Shown here in pieces: positions 182 to 32,240 of a stretch of DNA of 32,240 nt. Both the position numbers and the translations under genes were made by a program. Positions within the stretch are counted from its first letter, which is position 1. Each line of letters begins with the position of its first letter. Origin of the DNA: Candidatus Zambryskibacteria bacterium RIFCSPLOWO2_01_FULL_35_19 (GTDB lineage: Bacteria; Patescibacteriota; Minisyncoccia; Phycocordibacterales; WO2-35-19). The stretch spans positions 1 through 32,240 of the forward strand of contig MHWA01000015.1 in NCBI GenBank assembly GCA_001825335.1, given 5' to 3'. The notes below the pieces were generated by a model that saw nothing but the letters and a program-made list of their open reading frames with translations, was not told the origin of the DNA and made no database searches.

Positions 182-413
182 CTACGCTATTTACGCTATG
201 CTCTAATAGCTTCGCGGTGTAAACACCACTTCTGCAACACGAAATACTCGCAATACGGAGTAGTGCCCCGCGAAGCGCTAATGCGCGAAGTGGGGAACTT
301 TCGCGGTGCAAGCACCACCACTTCGTCAATTTTTCCCTCATAAAAATAGTGCGAAGTGTCCCGCAAAGCTTTGATGAAATCAAGGCGACGTGGGATTATC
401 ATCTCACTTGTGG
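182..413. repeat. GC-rich, hairpin-rich intergenic tract between tRNA-Ala and GIY-YIG gene
   Basis: This stretch of about 230 nt holds no credible gene. It is visibly richer in G+C than its surroundings and built from repeated short units. TTCGCGGTGTAAACACCAC and TTCGCGGTGCAAGCACCAC are two near-copies, each with a GGTG/CACC hairpin. GCGC-TAAT-GCGC sits inside a CCCC/GGGG stem, and CGAAGTG recurs several times in both orientations. It may be a decayed or miniature element tied to the neighbouring tRNA or nuclease gene. Function is unknown. Confidence 0.5.
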
Positions 414-425
414 GATAATTTCTAT

Positions 426-665
426 ATGTATTATTGCTATATTTTAAAAAGCTTAAAAGATGAAAGTTTCTATATTGGTTCAACAAAAGATTTAAAAGAG
501 CGTCTTGTTAAACACAATAAAAAAGCTGTTAGGTATTCTTCTACCAAAGCCCCATTTAAATTAGTTTGGTATTCTGCATTTTTAAATAAAGAAAAAGCCG
601 TGAGTTTTGAGATGTATCTAAAATCAAGTTCTGGTTTTGCTTTTAGAAATAAAAGATTAATTTAG
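426..665 (+). CDS. Free-standing GIY-YIG (URI-type) endonuclease domain protein
   Basis: About 79 residues, covering essentially one GIY-YIG nuclease domain. The signature is CYIL near the N-terminus followed by YIGST, then LKERL with the conserved Arg, and FEMYLKS, which supplies the metal-binding Glu. No DNA-binding domain is fused. The ORF track starts 12 codons earlier, but MYYCYILK is the usual family start, and a GATAAT -10 element ends 6 nt before this ATG, suggesting a leaderless message. There is no SD. Free-standing proteins of this type are frequent in CPR genomes and their substrate is unknown. The position beside a tRNA and a hairpin-rich tract is compatible with a small mobile unit (inference). 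Confidence 0.85.
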   Translation: MYYCYILKSLKDESFYIGSTKDLKERLVKHNKKAVRYSSTKAPFKLVWYSAFLNKEKAVSFEMYLKSSSGFAFRNKRLI

Positions 666-684
666 GTTTATTTGTAACCACAAC

Positions 685-712
685 TTGACATTATATATAT
701 TTATTTTATATT
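685..712 (+). promoter_or_regulatory. Consensus sigma-70 promoter of secreted-protein cassette
   Basis: A perfect -35 TTGACA (685-690) is followed after 16 nt by TATATT (707-712). It is followed at once by GGAGGTGAT (720-728), a full-strength SD that fixes the ATG at 731. Such an SD is rare in this window. Confidence 0.7.
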
Positions 713-730
713 AAATAATGGAGGTGATAT

Positions 731-1123
731 ATGTTTATCATTGGAAACTGGTTTGCCAGAAAACTTTTCTTGCTCCTTGCTTTGTGGCTTCTCATTGTTT
801 GTTTTGGAGAAGCCGCTGTTCAAGGGCAAGAAACTCAAGGTCAGACTGTTGAGGAGTCTTTTAAAACTCCTGCAAATCAACCAGCAACTATAGCTGGTCT
901 GAGTCCAGAGGAAATCGAAGCTCAGGATGAAATGAACAGAGTGAAAAAAGCCAGAGCTGTTGGTTTGCCCGACAATGCCACATGGGTTCAGATATATGAA
1001 GAAGAGGTAGAAAACAAAACTTCTCCGCCGGAGAAAGTGAAGGAGGAATTAGCCAAGGCGAAGAATTTTTTTGTTTTGGTAAGACAGACCATTATCTACC
1101 CATTTCGTTCTTTGTCCCATTAA
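731..1123 (+). CDS. Small secreted protein of unknown function, SD-led
   Basis: 130 aa. The N-terminus is a clear export signal: a basic start (FARK), a hydrophobic core LFLLLALWLLIVCF, then GEAAVQGQE as a likely signal peptidase I region. A Cys is present, but the residue before it is Val, so a lipobox is unlikely. The mature part is about 100 residues, hydrophilic and charged, with LSPEEIEAQDE and PPEKVKEELAKAK predicted helical, and a hydrophobic patch near the end. No family is recognised. It has its own consensus promoter, a perfect SD GGAGGTGAT 2 nt before ATG, and a downstream hairpin, so it forms an isolated unit. Base composition is visibly more GC-rich than its neighbours, which may indicate transfer. 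Confidence 0.8.
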   Translation: MFIIGNWFARKLFLLLALWLLIVCFGEAAVQGQETQGQTVEESFKTPANQPATIAGLSPEEIEAQDEMNRVKKARAVGLPDNATWVQIYEEEVENKTSPPEKVKEELAKAKNFFVLVRQTIIYPFRSLSH

Positions 1124-8432: not shown

Positions 8433-9644
8433 CTAAAAGAAATGTTGCAAGCGTTTTATTTTGTCGTGTTGACGCATTTTTTCTAATGCTTTAGCTTCAA
8501 TTTGACGGATACGCTCACGAGTAACTCCAAATTCTTTACCGACATCTTCTAGAGTGTGGTAAACTCCATCTATAAGACCGTTTCTCATTTCTATAATTTT
8601 CTTTTCTTTTGGGGGTAAGTCAGCTAGTATTTCTTTGAGTTGGTCGTGAATAATACGGCGATTTGATTCTTGATCTGGAGACACTATTTTGTCATCGGCC
8701 ATAAAGTCATTTAAAGTTGATTTACTACTATCTTCACTGCCAACTGGAGTCTCTAAAGAGACGGTGCCTTGGTCAATCTTTTCAATCATATAAATTTTTT
8801 CAGGATCTAGGTCCATTTCTACGGCGATTTCTTCTGGTAATGGGTCTCTACCAAGATCTTGAGATAGTCTTCTTACTACCTGTTTGTATTTGGCTATAGT
8901 TTCAACCATATGTACCGGCACTCTGATGGTGCGACTTTGGTCAGCTAAAGCTCGGGTAATGGCCTGCCTAATCCACCAAGTGGCATAAGTAGAAAATTTA
9001 AAACCTTTAGTATGGTCAAATTTGTCAACTGCTTTAAAGAGTCCTAGATTTCCTTCTTGAATAAGATCTAGTAAAGTAAGATCAGAACTTCGTCCAACAT
9101 ATTTTTTGGCAATGGAAACAACTAAACGAAGATTGGCTCTGGCTAAAATATTTTTAACTTCTTCTTCCCCATTTATTATTCTCTTAGCCAACTCTTTTTC
9201 TTGAGCGCCAGAGATGAGTGGATGTTTACCGATATCTTTTAGATACATTTGAATAGAATCGTGAGAATTTTCATCTTTGAGGGGATCTTTTTTGGTCAAA
9301 GAACTTTCATCTAAAAGTTTACCGCTTTCAAGAATGTCTATACCAGCTACCGAACATTCTTCATATATTCCTTCAAGGAGAAAAATATCATCTTCTATGT
9401 TTGGAAATTCTTTCAAGATTTCACTATAAGTAATAAAGCCACGTTCTTTGCCTTTTATGATCAGTTCTATTTTTTTTGCTTCTATTTCTGAAATTGTTTT
9501 TTTGGAGCTTACCTTTGTTTTTGATTTCACTTTTTTAACCACTTTCTTTTTTAGAGGTTTCTTTTTTGTGGTAGTTTTGACTTTTTTTACCTTTGTTTTT
9601 GATTTCACTTTTTTAACCACTTTCTTTTTTGTTTTTTTAGGCAT
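8433..9644 (-). CDS. rpoD: Primary sigma factor (sigma-70, RpoD) with Lys-rich N-terminal extension
   Basis: 403 aa. Directs RNA polymerase to housekeeping promoters. Residues ~1-50 are a Lys/Val/Thr tail with [14 protein letters not shown] occurring twice. Then follow region 1.1 ([11 protein letters not shown]), region 1.2 ([17 protein letters not shown]), regions 2.1-2.4 ([43 protein letters not shown]), region 3, and region 4.2 ([20 protein letters not shown]). The conserved 2.4 and 4.2 helices fit the TTGACA/TATAAT-like and TGn-extended promoters seen around the window. It sits 11 nt after dnaG in the classic macromolecular-synthesis order and has no SD. The Lys-rich tail arose by a 42-bp duplication and could bind nucleic acid. 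Confidence 0.96.
9511..9630 (-). repeat. 42-bp direct repeat inside rpoD 5' end
   Basis: Two identical 42-bp units lie at 9511-9552 and 9589-9630. They encode the duplicated [14 protein letters not shown] segment of the sigma factor tail. Perfect identity points to a recent duplication. Confidence 0.9.
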
Positions 9645-9655
9645 TTTATTTTTAA

Positions 9656-11371
9656 TTAATTATTAAGTTCTTTGATACGTTTTTGTATTTTATTAAAATC
9701 TGTTTTTGTTTCTTTTTGGTCTTTTTTTGAAAGATTTTTATCGTCTAAAATGATAGTTATTTTTTGAAGTTTAGTTTTTAAATTTTTTAATTCAAGTCGT
9801 TTTAAGATGTCTTCTGCTATTTCGTCTAAACTTCCTTTTTCACCATAACCTTCTGTTTCAAATATAAGAGCTTCTTTGTTTTTTTCAAAATTTGCTAAAA
9901 TTTCTTCTACCTTTTCTTTATTTACGATTTGTTGCCATTTTTCTTTTAAATTTTTACTCTTTTTACTTTTATTAAATTCTTCTAAAAATATGATTCCAGC
10001 TAAGATGCGTTCTAGATTTACAATTTTTGAATAATTTTTAAATGGATCCTCTCCTTTATTAGGATCTTCTTTTTTTTCAATTTTTTTAAGATCATTTAAA
10101 ACATCTTGTTCGTGTACTTTCATCTTTAAAGCTATTTTTTTTACAAATATTGACTTTTCTATCTCACTTTTGATAAGAGAGACTAGAGGCAAGACATTTT
10201 TAATAATCTCTTTTGTTATATTTCGGTCTTCTTTTTCTTCTAAAGCTTTATTTAAAGAAAAATCTATAAAATGCTGGGATTCTTTGAGGGCTTTTTTCCA
10301 TTTGGCGGGGTCTTTTTTTATGATTGAGGCCGGATCTTCTCCTTCTGGTAATGAGACCGTTTTAATCTCCATCCCCAAAGCCATAGCCATCTCGGCGGCT
10401 CTTCTAGATGCTTTTTCTCCAGAATCATCAGAATCATAAGCAATAATAATTCTATTTGAAAGTTTGCCTATTTTTTTTAGATGAAGTTCTGTTAAAGCTG
10501 TGCCAGAAGAAGCAACAGTATTTAAAATACCAACTTGATGAGACATTAGCAAGTCCATTTGTCCTTCTACTAAAACAGTGTAGTCTAATTTTCGGATATG
10601 ATTTTTAGCCACATCAAATCCATAAAGAGCTTCTGATTTGTAAAAGAGTTTGGTTTCTGGAGAGTTTAAATATTTAGGAATCTTGTTCTCTTGTTCTGAA
10701 CCTGTTGAAGGATCTTTTATGGCTCTACCAGAGAAAGCGATTACTCTACCTGCGCTATCATTTATTGGAAACATTATTCTATCTCTAAAGGTATCATAAT
10801 ATTTTATTTGTCCAGAATTTGTTTCGTTGTCAGTTTTTTTTATAAGTCCCGCTTCTAGCATTTCTTCTTTAGAAAAATTATTTTGTAGATTGTCGTAAAG
10901 ACTTCTCCATTCATTTTTAGCAAAGCCAAGCCTCCATTTAGCTATCGAATCATTCGTCACTCCTCTTTTTTTCAAAACATTTAAAGCTTCTTTGTTTTCT
11001 ATTAGTTGTTTTTCAAATATTTGAGTTGCTTTTTCCATTATTTCAAATAATTTATCTTTTTCTCCTTTGACATCATTTGTTTGTTTGAAGTTTTTTAATT
11101 CAACACCAGCTTTGCTTGCTAAAGTCTCTAGAGCTCCTTTGAAATCAAGACCTTCAAATTTTTCTACAAATGAAAAAATGTCTCCTTTTTCTCCACAACC
11201 AAAACAATAAAAGCTTTGACGAGTTGGAGATATAAAAAAAGAAGGAGTTTTTTCGTTGTGAAAAGGACACTTGGCTTTGTAATTAATTCCTGCTTTTTCT
11301 ACCTTAATATAACCAGATATAATATCCACAATGTCTAATTTTTCTTTTATTTGTTCTACGTTTGTTGACAT
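9656..11371 (-). CDS. dnaG: DNA primase
   Basis: 571 aa. Makes RNA primers for replication. The N-terminal CHC2 zinc finger is C35-x2-H38 and C56-x2-C59 (CPFH...CFGC). The RNA-polymerase core includes [16 protein letters not shown]. The Toprim domain shows [12 protein letters not shown] and [12 protein letters not shown], the acidic metal-binding cluster. The C-terminal ~170 residues are Lys/Glu-rich and helical, in the place of the helicase-interaction domain, and are diverged. Upstream lies a MazF-like gene and downstream rpoD at 11 nt. The start [19 protein letters not shown] fits the family. No SD. Confidence 0.96.
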
Positions 11372-11440: not shown

Positions 11441-11519
11441 ACAAATTCCCTTTTGGGGACAATACTCTCGTGAAAGCGAGAGGCAATCATTTAAGAACGG
11501 CCTTGTCTAAGGCTGTTTT
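11441..11519 (+). ncRNA. Candidate small RNA convergent with the mazF-like gene
   Basis: Transcription from the TTGACA/TATACT promoter would give an RNA of about 80 nt. It would have a small TCCC/GGGA hairpin, a GAAA-tetraloop hairpin CTCTCGT-GAAA-GCGAGAG (GT closing pair), and a terminator-like ACGGCCTT-GTCT-AAGGCTGT followed by TTTTT. The terminator overlaps the last codons of mazF on the other strand, so the RNA would be antisense to the toxin mRNA 3' end. No match to a known RNA family was recognised. The terminator stem also encodes ALDKA, so it may be fortuitous. Confidence 0.4.
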
Positions 11520-11879
11520 TAAATGTCCAAAAGGTTTCTCCCCTATCTTGTCTATTACCTTCCATAATCTTTTTGAAGAAATCGTTCTAACTTGTGACAA
11601 CATAGCTGCTGTTTTAAAATTACCGGCTCTTACTATTATCTTAAAATAATATTTATTATTTTTCATTATTGAAGAGCATGGTACACCAAATAACAACTCT
11701 TTATTAAATTTTTTAATCACAACAAAAGGTCGTACAAAATCATCTCCTTTACCATTTTCCTCATGTCCTACATTTTCACCCAAACTTGCCCACCAGATTT
11801 CTCGCTCTTCAAAAGTTGGAGGTAATCTTTTCTTGTGAATTTTCTCTTTAATCCCTATCCATTCCAAAAATCTTTTCAT
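11487..11879 (-). CDS. MazF/PemK-like toxin domain protein
   Basis: 130 aa. Fits the PemK/MazF fold: EREIWWASLGENVGHEENGK at the start of the domain, RPFVVIKKF (the conserved Arg strand), a GVPCSS turn in place of the usual P-x-T-S, and LSQVRTISSKRL resembling the QIRTID-x-RL helix. Family members are usually mRNA-cleaving toxins. A basic ~20-residue N-terminal extension precedes the domain. No MazE-type antitoxin ORF is adjacent: upstream is a CYTH gene (17-nt gap), downstream dnaG. It may be domesticated, or controlled by the convergent RNA (inference). Stop is TGA. Confidence 0.8.
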   Translation of the reverse strand: MKRFLEWIGIKEKIHKKRLPPTFEEREIWWASLGENVGHEENGKGDDFVRPFVVIKKFNKELLFGVPCSSIMKNNKYYFKIIVRAGNFKTAAMLSQVRTISSKRLWKVIDKIGEKPFGHLKTALDKAVLK

Positions 11880-30415: not shown

Positions 30416-30422
30416 TCTTTTG

Positions 30423-30495
30423 TGCGCGCACTAGGGGTCGAACCTAGGACCTTTCGAGTATCAGTCGAATGCTCTACCAGCTGAGCTATGCGCGC
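30423..30495 (-). tRNA. tRNA-Ile (anticodon GAU)
   Basis: A 73-nt cloverleaf on the minus strand. The acceptor stem GCGCGCA pairs with TGCGCGC, the anticodon stem TTCGA/TCGAA encloses loop CTGATAC (anticodon GAT), and the T arm is CTAGG-TTCGACC-CCTAG. The discriminator is A. CCA is not encoded (CAA follows), unlike tRNA-Ala in this window. It lies about 1 kb downstream of the 16S gene on the same strand, a likely remnant of a classical 16S-tRNA-Ile-23S order. Confidence 0.95.
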
Positions 30496-30609: not shown

Positions 30610-30640
30610 GGCCCGCCTTGCGTTTTCGCAAAAGCGGACC
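30610..30640 (-). terminator. Hairpin after the two-gene membrane-protein cassette
   Basis: On the minus strand GGTCCGC-t-TTTGCG, loop AAAA, CGCAAGGCGGGCC makes a 13-bp stem with one bulge, 18 nt after the end of the 3' gene. It is followed by ATCTCTTTTATATTTC. GC-rich and terminator-like. Confidence 0.65.
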
Positions 30641-30657
30641 GTGTTTGCCGATAACAA

Positions 30658-30915
30658 TCATCGGCGGAATGATCGCAAGTCCCTCATGGGTCTTGGGATC
30701 ATGTGGTGGCTGAATTCGTGTTTGTTCGTTGCTCGCTTGAAGCGTAGGGCTAAGTGTAGTAGCCCAGCTTTTCCAAGGAAGAAAATTGAGGAGAAGGAGG
30801 CGGGGCTTATCAATGCCTCATACCCACCTCTACCAAAATCGTAGCCACTTATGAATGCACAAATGGCTGAAATGATAATACAGCTGTCTCTGGCTATTTT
30901 CAGAAATCTATTCAT
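30658..30915 (-). CDS. Small membrane protein of unknown function, SD-led (second gene of cassette)
   Basis: About 85 aa from the chosen start MNRFLKIARD. A hydrophobic segment CIIISAICAFISGYDF is a probable transmembrane helix. A second, weaker one covers FSSIFFLGKAGLLHLAL, and the tail is basic (FKRATNKHEFSHH...RDLRSFRR). No family recognised. The start at 30915 is set by a good SD, AGGAGATC, 6-7 nt upstream. An alternative Met at 30936 overlaps the previous stop as ATGA, which would couple translation. Base composition is richer in G+C than core genes. Confidence 0.6.
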   Translation of the reverse strand: MNRFLKIARDSCIIISAICAFISGYDFGRGGYEALISPASFSSIFFLGKAGLLHLALRFKRATNKHEFSHHMIPRPMRDLRSFRR

Positions 30916-30932
30916 GATTGATCTCCTCTTCT

Positions 30933-31205
30933 TCATCGATGCGTCGGAGCAATGGAACTCGCCTCATTGATGCGATCGATTATTTTTTGTCTGTTGCAAT
31001 CCAGACAGATTTTCTTGTAGCCACGCCAGATGAAAAAACTTAACAAAGCAGTGAGATACCACATGGCGACGATAGTCATCAATGGTACCCACTCGTTGAT
31101 GATGATGGACCAAAATTCAATGGTTAACCATAATATGGTAGATACCATTATTATGATCGATACCAAGCAAACGACTAAACAAAGCCGTTTTTGTTGTAGT
31201 GACAT
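30933..31205 (-). CDS. Small two-TM membrane protein with CxxC, SD-led (first gene of cassette)
   Basis: 90 aa. Two hydrophobic helices are clear: LCLVVCLVSIIIMVSTILWL, and about WVPLMTIVAMWYLTALLSFFIW. A short basic cytoplasmic tail follows with CLDC (CxxC), which could bind metal or be redox-active. No family recognised. It is preceded by an extended -10/-35 promoter and a perfect SD GGAGGTGAT, identical to that of the 130-aa secreted protein at 731 and unlike all core genes here. It overlaps or abuts the next gene (ATGA). Confidence 0.7.
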   Translation of the reverse strand: MSLQQKRLCLVVCLVSIIIMVSTILWLTIEFWSIIINEWVPLMTIVAMWYLTALLSFFIWRGYKKICLDCNRQKIIDRINEASSIAPTHR

Positions 31206-31207
31206 TT

Positions 31208-31251
31208 ATCACCTCCGTCATTAATTATATCACAACCATAGAAAAAAGCAA
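31208..31251 (-). promoter_or_regulatory. Promoter and SD of the two-gene membrane-protein cassette
   Basis: Minus strand: TTGCTT (31246-31251), 16 nt, TG-A-TATAAT (hexamer 31224-31229), then GGAGGTGAT (31208-31216) 2 nt before the ATG at 31205. Complete and close to consensus. Confidence 0.7.
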
Positions 31252-31280
31252 CCTGCTCACTTATGATAAATTTAAACACC

Positions 31281-31309
31281 AAAAAACTCCTTAAAATAAG
31301 GAGTTTTTT
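31281..31309. terminator. Strong terminator downstream of 16S rRNA
   Basis: AAAAAACTCCTTA-AAA-TAAGGAGTTTTTT, a perfect 13-bp stem with T-runs on both strands. It lies about 210 nt after the 16S 3' end in the direction of rRNA transcription, so the 16S transcript ends here without a 23S gene. Confidence 0.85.
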
Positions 31310-31318
31310 GTTCCCATT

Positions 31319-31513: not shown

Positions 31514-31520
31514 ATCTTCA

Positions 31521-32240
31521 CCTTGAAATATTCCACGAACAGCTTCCGCTACCCGTGCCTTGTTACGACTTAGTCCTTGTTATTGAGTTTACCTTAGTCC
31601 CACTTACGTGAGCCTTTGGGTACTCCCAACTTCCCTGACTTGACGGGCGGTGAGTACAAGACTTGAGAACGTATTCACCGCGGTATAGCTGACCCGCGAT
31701 TACTAGCGATTCCAACTTCAAGAGGTCGAGTTTCAGCCCTCTATCCGAACTGGGGCCATTTTTATAGGATTAGCTCAAGCTTACGCTGTCGCGACCCGTT
31801 GTAATGACCATTGTATTATGCGTGTAGCCCAAGGCGTCAAGGGACATGCTGACCTGGCGTCATCCTCGCTTCCTCCCAGCACCAAACCAACGAAGTTGGT
31901 TTGCAAATTCGAAATTCGAATATCGAAATTCAAAACAAATTCAAAATTTTTAAATTTAAAAATTAAAAACGTTTCGGATTTCGGATTTCGTGCTTCGGAT
32001 TTGCACCAAGCTCTGCGAGCTTGGTGCTGGGTAGTCTCGGCTGACACTTGTAACAGCCAACGAGGGTTGCGTTCGTTACCCCACTTAAGGGAACAATTCA
32101 AATCACGAACTGACGACGGCCATGCATCACCTGTCTATCTGTCCTTGTGAGACTCCAAACGTTTCTGCTTGGATTCAGATAGATTTCTAGCCTTGGTAAG
32201 GTTTTTCGTTTAGCATCGAATTGAACCGCATAATCCACCG
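31521..32240 (-). rRNA. rrs: 16S ribosomal RNA, 3' portion (5' part outside the window), with helix-40 insertion
   Basis: Covers the equivalent of E. coli about 936 to the 3' end. Universal blocks are present (reverse complements on the plus strand): GACGGGCGGTGAGTACA, TTGTTACGACTT, ACTAGCGATTCCAACTTCA and the 1100-region GGGTTGCGTTCGTTACCCC. Helix 45 is intact as CACGGGUAGC-GGAA-GCUGUUCGUG (31534-31557). The tail after it reads GAAUAUUUCAAGG and lacks the expected GAUCACCUCCUU, so no anti-SD is visible. The 3' end was set 13 nt after helix 45 by analogy. A 151-nt insertion lies at 31878-32028. No 23S follows; the transcript ends at 31281-31309. Confidence 0.95.
31878..32028 (-). repeat. Insertion element inside 16S helix 40
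   Basis: The loop of helix 40 (E. coli ~1165-1171) is replaced by 151 nt. AGCACCAA/TTGGTGCT at its ends lengthens the native CCAG/CTGG stem. Inside are AAACCAAC-GAA-GTTGGTTT (31884-31902), a perfect 11-bp GCACCAAGCTC-TGC-GAGCTTGGTGC hairpin (32003-32027) competing with the closing stem, and an AT-rich middle made of TTCGAAATTCGAA- and CGGATTTCGGATTTCG-like repeats. There is no ORF of its own, and no group I or II intron core was recognised. Confidence 0.85.

Follow-up and report, generated by a model that had tools for sequence, protein, structure and literature searches.

Phage morons and auxiliary genes have their own promoter and terminator, deviate in composition and lie inside a phage or prophage. 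Integron gene cassettes are single genes at variable sites and come with attC and an integrase. Bacteria in which the Shine-Dalgarno (SD) sequence is scarce and the 16S rRNA has no CCUCC were the subject of earlier work (Lim et al., PMC3522020; Amin et al., PMC6107228), where Lim et al. found that loss of the anti-SD always goes with loss of SD-like sequences (PMC3522020). The CPR lineages Campbellbacteria, Wolfebacteria and Absconditabacteria are already listed as lacking CCUCC (PMC10783764), so that anti-SD loss as such is not new. The genome studied here (G000), a tiny symbiont-type CPR (Patescibacteria) genome of 510 kb, belongs with the SD-scarce category iv of the same source (PMC10783764), since CCUCC is missing from its 16S 3' end and SDs are rare in its mRNAs. 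As judged from its sequence, a small cassette located between 16S and tRNA-Ile is one of about twenty stand-alone accessory genes with an SD in this anti-SD-less genome. Since the host 16S has no anti-SD, a perfect SD means something else here.

The window is the whole stretch of DNA that was analysed, 32,240 nt in length. G000 was read whole, G002 whole or nearly so, and G003 and G010, which are incomplete here, over 615 kb and 260 kb, respectively. ORFs were called by simple rules and SD cores were scored at -17 to -4; starts chosen by rule make the SD and leaderless counts given below noisier. The evidence throughout is DNA sequence. The cassette and its surroundings have the following features.

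31521-32240, minus strand: 3' part of 16S rRNA (Rfam RF00177, 456.8 bits), with the contig end inside it
31521-31535, minus strand: 16S 3' tail TGGAATATTTCAAGG, which replaces the anti-SD; helix 45 folds intact
31280-31310, minus strand: intrinsic terminator after 16S (folding -16.3 kcal/mol, z = -5.7)
31224-31251, minus strand: cassette promoter read from sequence, with a -35-like TTGCTT (31246-31251), a 16-nt spacer and an extended -10 TGATATAAT (TATAAT at 31224-31229, with TG extension); similar in relatives at the same place
31208-31216, minus strand: SD GGAGGTGAT, followed by 2 bases and then ATG at 31205
30933-31205, minus strand: ORF A, 90 aa, two transmembrane segments and a basic C-tail, local member of the putative 16S-side family
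30658-30936, minus strand: ORF B, 92 aa (85 aa from ATG 30915), a less certain small membrane protein
30610-30640, minus strand: GC-rich intrinsic terminator of the cassette after ORF B (folding -22.1 kcal/mol, z = -3.4)
30422-30495, minus strand: tRNA-Ile (GAT)

Read along the minus strand, the order is 16S 3' part, terminator, promoter, GGAGGTGAT, ORF A, ORF B, terminator and tRNA-Ile. The extended -10 promoter and the GC-rich terminator had both been proposed in the preliminary description, and both are borne out by the sequence, the former also by the similar promoters of relatives and the latter by the hairpin that follows ORF B. A simple sigma-70 consensus scan did not list the cassette promoter because its -35 box is weak; the extended -10 was recognised by eye. 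The same description had placed the cassette where the spacer of a 16S-tRNA-23S operon would be. This we reject, as 23S and 16S lie on separate contigs in G002, G003 and G006 and are thus unlinked over the reach of those contigs, 16S has a terminator of its own, and enolase is located beyond tRNA-Ile. The claim of two transmembrane-protein genes joined by ATGA holds as far as the overlap and the hydrophobic segments are concerned (two strong segments in ORF A and one in ORF B, by the same measure), but it is weakened by a second ATG of ORF B at 30915, which has its own SD-like AGGAG upstream and could be where translation really begins. The relatives yielded no counterpart of ORF B. ORF A is predicted to form a two-helix hairpin in the membrane, probably with its basic tail in the cytoplasm. 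It weakly matches PF24195 (DUF7420) and phrog_2313 over most of its length (E about 1e-3), with a score below the Pfam cut-off (19.7 versus 27 bits), and this likeness is probably one of shared transmembrane composition.

The G000 16S ends in GTCGTAACAAGGCACGGGTAGCGGAAGCTGTTCGTGGAATATTTCAAGG, in short GGAATATTTC, with GGATCACCTCC missing and GTGGAATATTTCAAGG in its place. Relatives of the order with a readable 16S 3' end have the same kind of tail, except for G225, which keeps the anti-SD; in most other genomes of the phylum sample for which a tail was listed, the anti-SD is retained as such or as a close variant. No alternative anti-SD or CCUCC-like site inside 16S was common to the relatives checked. 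It should be noted that the whole-genome 16S search overlooked the window's own partial copy, so cut rRNA genes can be missed. Many members of the order have a possible short hairpin, UUUCA..UGAAA, that replaces the anti-SD (window 31515-31535, minus strand, and the tails of loci L004-L033), and this hairpin is kept with two-sided changes in G020 (UUCC..GGAA) and G023 (GUCA..UGAC); it was not chosen when the window was folded as a single sequence. The window's 16S also has an extra segment of about 130-150 nt in the h39 region, bounded by inverted repeats (about 31881-32033, minus strand), and in G297 (C11; L143 1-860) 16S is split by several insertions, one of them directly before helix 45.

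Core genes show no SD use above control. Specifically, the low-GC3 half has SDs in 2-4% of genes, equal to the position control, and both the position and the complement control stay low. A -10 box lies 5-8 nt before the ATG in 17-21% of core genes, with a peak at 6-7 nt, which is the layout expected of putative leaderless mRNA. No new SD-like motif was detected upstream of core genes, the top enriched words there being the -10 box itself. Among SD-led genes, whose starts were picked for this comparison because an SD was present, the leaderless-type spacing occurs in 0 of 23, 0 of 30 and about 2% of 42.

The SDs are not spread evenly over core genes elsewhere in the genome, as they would be if the preliminary description were wrong about a shared class; they concentrate on high-GC3 genes. 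With both gene groups treated alike, 20 of the 50 G000 genes in the top GC3 decile have an SD (about 40%) versus 23 of 451 others (p = 4e-11), and the corresponding figures are 21/54 (about 40%) versus 17/494 in G002 (p = 1e-13) and 7/27 versus 11/249 in the 260 kb of G010 that were read (p = 6e-4), so that this partly read genome also links SDs with high GC3. Over 615 kb of G003, where the start of an SD gene was picked for its SD, the figures are 23/63 versus 44/563. The SD cores of high-GC3 genes, in a comparison that again treats both groups alike, peak 7-12 nt upstream of the start, a peak that is absent from low-GC3 genes. Strong 3' hairpins (<= -12 kcal/mol) follow 85, 70 and 74% of the SD class, its starts having been picked for their SD, versus 19, 11 and 13% of core genes; these counts use folding energy, a strict perfect-stem scan having given few terminators in both classes. 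Nearby promoters are also frequent at SD-led genes. Raised GC3 as a by-product of transmembrane codons was rejected, as core transmembrane genes show core GC3.

Could these patterns be an artefact of chimeric assembly, contamination or chance SD motifs? The assembly does consist of 20 contigs, is 91% complete and has a contig end that falls within 16S. However, class genes are found within contigs, flanked by syntenic core genes, G002 and G003 give the same statistics, the 16S-side gene recurs in seven genomes, and the position and complement controls are low, and we regard an artefact as highly improbable.

The second cassette of the window, at its left end, belongs to the same class.

685-728, plus strand: promoter-like TTGACA, AT-rich -10 region and GGAGGTGAT, read from sequence
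731-1123, plus strand: left cassette ORF, 130 aa, with an N-terminal hydrophobic segment; same class, unrelated protein

Here GGAGGTGAT occupies 720-728 and is followed by two bases and the ATG at 731, so the two cassettes do share this SD at the 2-nt spacing originally reported, and a terminator hairpin (z = -5.5 by folding) is present. The genome-wide search for this SD ahead of an ATG, which had been proposed as a check, found only three sites with a gap of 0-6 nt in the 510 kb of the genome, and the reversed pattern gave no hit. At the hisS locus where the left cassette lies, G003 has a different GC-rich SD-led gene. A GIY-YIG endonuclease ORF (window 390-665) adjoins tRNA-Ala and the left cassette. 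Window 11487-11879 contains a MazF/PemK-like toxin ORF.

Few genes of the SD class have relatives in the genus. Again with SD-gene starts picked for their SD, only 5/20, 5/23 and 4/23 of them have relatives in the other two congeners, versus 361/427, 357/502 and 342/519 (66-85%) of low-GC3 genes without an SD. Flanking core genes that could be located in G002 mostly show synteny, with 50-84% identity, and the place of the SD-led gene is there either empty (30-102 bp) or taken by another SD-led gene; sites in G003 are likewise empty or otherwise filled. The contents of the class include thymidylate synthase, dCMP deaminase, M16 peptidase, SPFH and ATP-grasp proteins along with numerous small or exported proteins that belong to no family. 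The co-occurrence of SD, high GC3, 3' hairpin, scarce relatives and placement in three congeners gives good support to the suggestion that the two cassettes represent a shared accessory gene class. A single common source, the other half of that suggestion, is not supported, as the proteins of the class are unrelated to one another and vary in GC3 between about 0.35 and 0.68. Two further loci deserve description. At G000:C1 2716-4716 and 11206-13134 (L041), two exported SD-led long ORFs have an identical 45-nt upstream sequence and similar DNA after their stops, as if derived from a duplicated expression site. At G000:C5, about 9050-9670 (L045), a PaaX-like ORF lies between direct repeats that contain CGCGATCGGGTTAGTTGTTATAT.

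The patchy occurrence of these genes, their variable sites and odd composition, and their transcription as separate units together point to horizontally shared accessory genes. The reading that we favour, and to which we give an even chance, is that the SD-led class, including the cassette, forms a pool of horizontally shared genes, the SDs of which would reflect SD-using hosts. Specifically, SD-led units would be exchanged among CPR bacteria, perhaps also with their phages or hosts, and their SDs and codon composition would have formed mainly in SD-using cells. In G000 the cassette mRNA would arise from its own promoter, have a short leader and be translated without SD:anti-SD pairing. The class yielded neither a mobility enzyme nor an attachment site. 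As SDs are little used in much of the phylum, the SD-led minority may be older than the loss of the anti-SD.

A phage origin of the class, as morons or auxiliary genes that remain in the chromosome or pass through it, would fit its promoters, terminators and odd composition, and the ATP-grasp protein does match a PHROG moron family (8e-12) and the dCMP deaminase phage families. We nevertheless think this origin improbable, since the loci read show no prophage context and most class proteins have no PHROG match. The proteins of the window, moreover, gave nothing or borderline matches in viral, phage, Pfam, PHROG and PADLOC searches and have no relatives among viral contigs, and ORF A has none in phage records either.

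The position next to 16S behaves differently from the empty or exchanged sites. All seven readable genomes of the taxonomic family (G000, G002, G003, G004, G006, G007 and G008) have a terminator, promoter, SD-like leader and small membrane protein with raised GC3 between 16S and tRNA-Ile, and the SD is degenerate in G006 (GGGAG) and G007 (GGGGG). Similar units follow 16S in G011, G013, G017 and G297; the one in G297 begins as the others do but soon breaks off. A unique insertion between 16S and tRNA-Ile is therefore excluded by these counterparts, and the expectation that relatives would show the site without the cassette is met at other SD-led loci but not here. Taken as a set, with the two G002 proteins left out, six 16S-side proteins score 529 versus 415 +/- 21, above 300 of 300 hydropathy-preserving shuffles, although several pairs are not significant when taken one by one, so that homology holds for the set and not for every single member. 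The C-tail (IDRxxEA..P) is the clearest common part. Judging by these comparisons, the 16S-side gene appears to represent a fast-evolving family of two-transmembrane proteins at that position, and its sharp divergence suggests, as a guess, a surface or conflict role and not housekeeping.

This recurrence also speaks against the gene pool, since signals not under selection should have decayed. The same can be said of a few old orthologue pairs that keep both the SD and raised GC3, namely thymidylate synthase (67% identical), DHFR (46%) and PfaD (73%). A further point against the gene pool is that the G000 thymidylate synthase has no close homologue in 380 sampled CPR genomes (best about 30-38% identical), nor a close relative in the sampled SD-using CPR. 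In favour of the pool, an SD-led thymidylate synthase that is 73% identical occurs in G297, which has the same 16S tail type. The old SD-keeping pairs, the 16S-side family and the missing thymidylate synthase relatives make selection for the SD without an anti-SD a serious rival. According to this rival, the class is a native, vertically inherited gene set in which the SD works without a 16S anti-SD and is kept by selection, being read for instance by a ribosomal protein, by a trans-acting RNA or through an open purine-rich leader. The canonical spacing between SD and start would also agree with it. Most class genes, on the other hand, lack a relative in congeners and have sites that are empty or swapped, their composition is foreign, no shared CCUCC-like site is left in 16S, and a strict SD is kept in only 5 of all 15 scored high-GC3 pairs (8 of 80 low-GC3 pairs). 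For these reasons we consider the native gene set a tentative alternative that is rather unlikely.

We also doubt, and regard as a distant prospect, that the genome has two translation dialects of which the SD dialect is under selection even though its own ribosomes cannot pair with it. If this were true, SD-led accessory genes would be read by something other than the cell's own 16S tail or, in the extreme case, would be meant for SD-using ribosomes outside the cell, for example in a host cell to which these bacteria attach. More generally, a leaderless core together with an SD-led accessory class would give CPR bacteria an internal marker for foreign genes, and such a marker would bear on CPR gene exchange, which is poorly known. 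The lineage would likewise be a natural test of whether the SD works or persists without its ribosomal partner. Finally, the class draws attention to small membrane proteins that evolve fast and have strong promoters, as candidates for a role at the symbiont surface.

When the locus is set against the described systems, SD-led genes resemble phage morons and auxiliary genes in that they stand alone, have a promoter and terminator, and are odd in composition, but the cassette lies outside any prophage, among core genes and next to those for rRNA and tRNA. They resemble integron gene cassettes as single-gene units at variable sites, but come with promoters of their own and occur one at a time at scattered places in the genome. 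With SD-scarce bacteria, including Ca. Campbellbacteria, Wolfebacteria and Absconditabacteria, the genome shares a 16S tail without CCUCC and core genes without SDs; what differs is that a distinct accessory minority here keeps canonical SDs.
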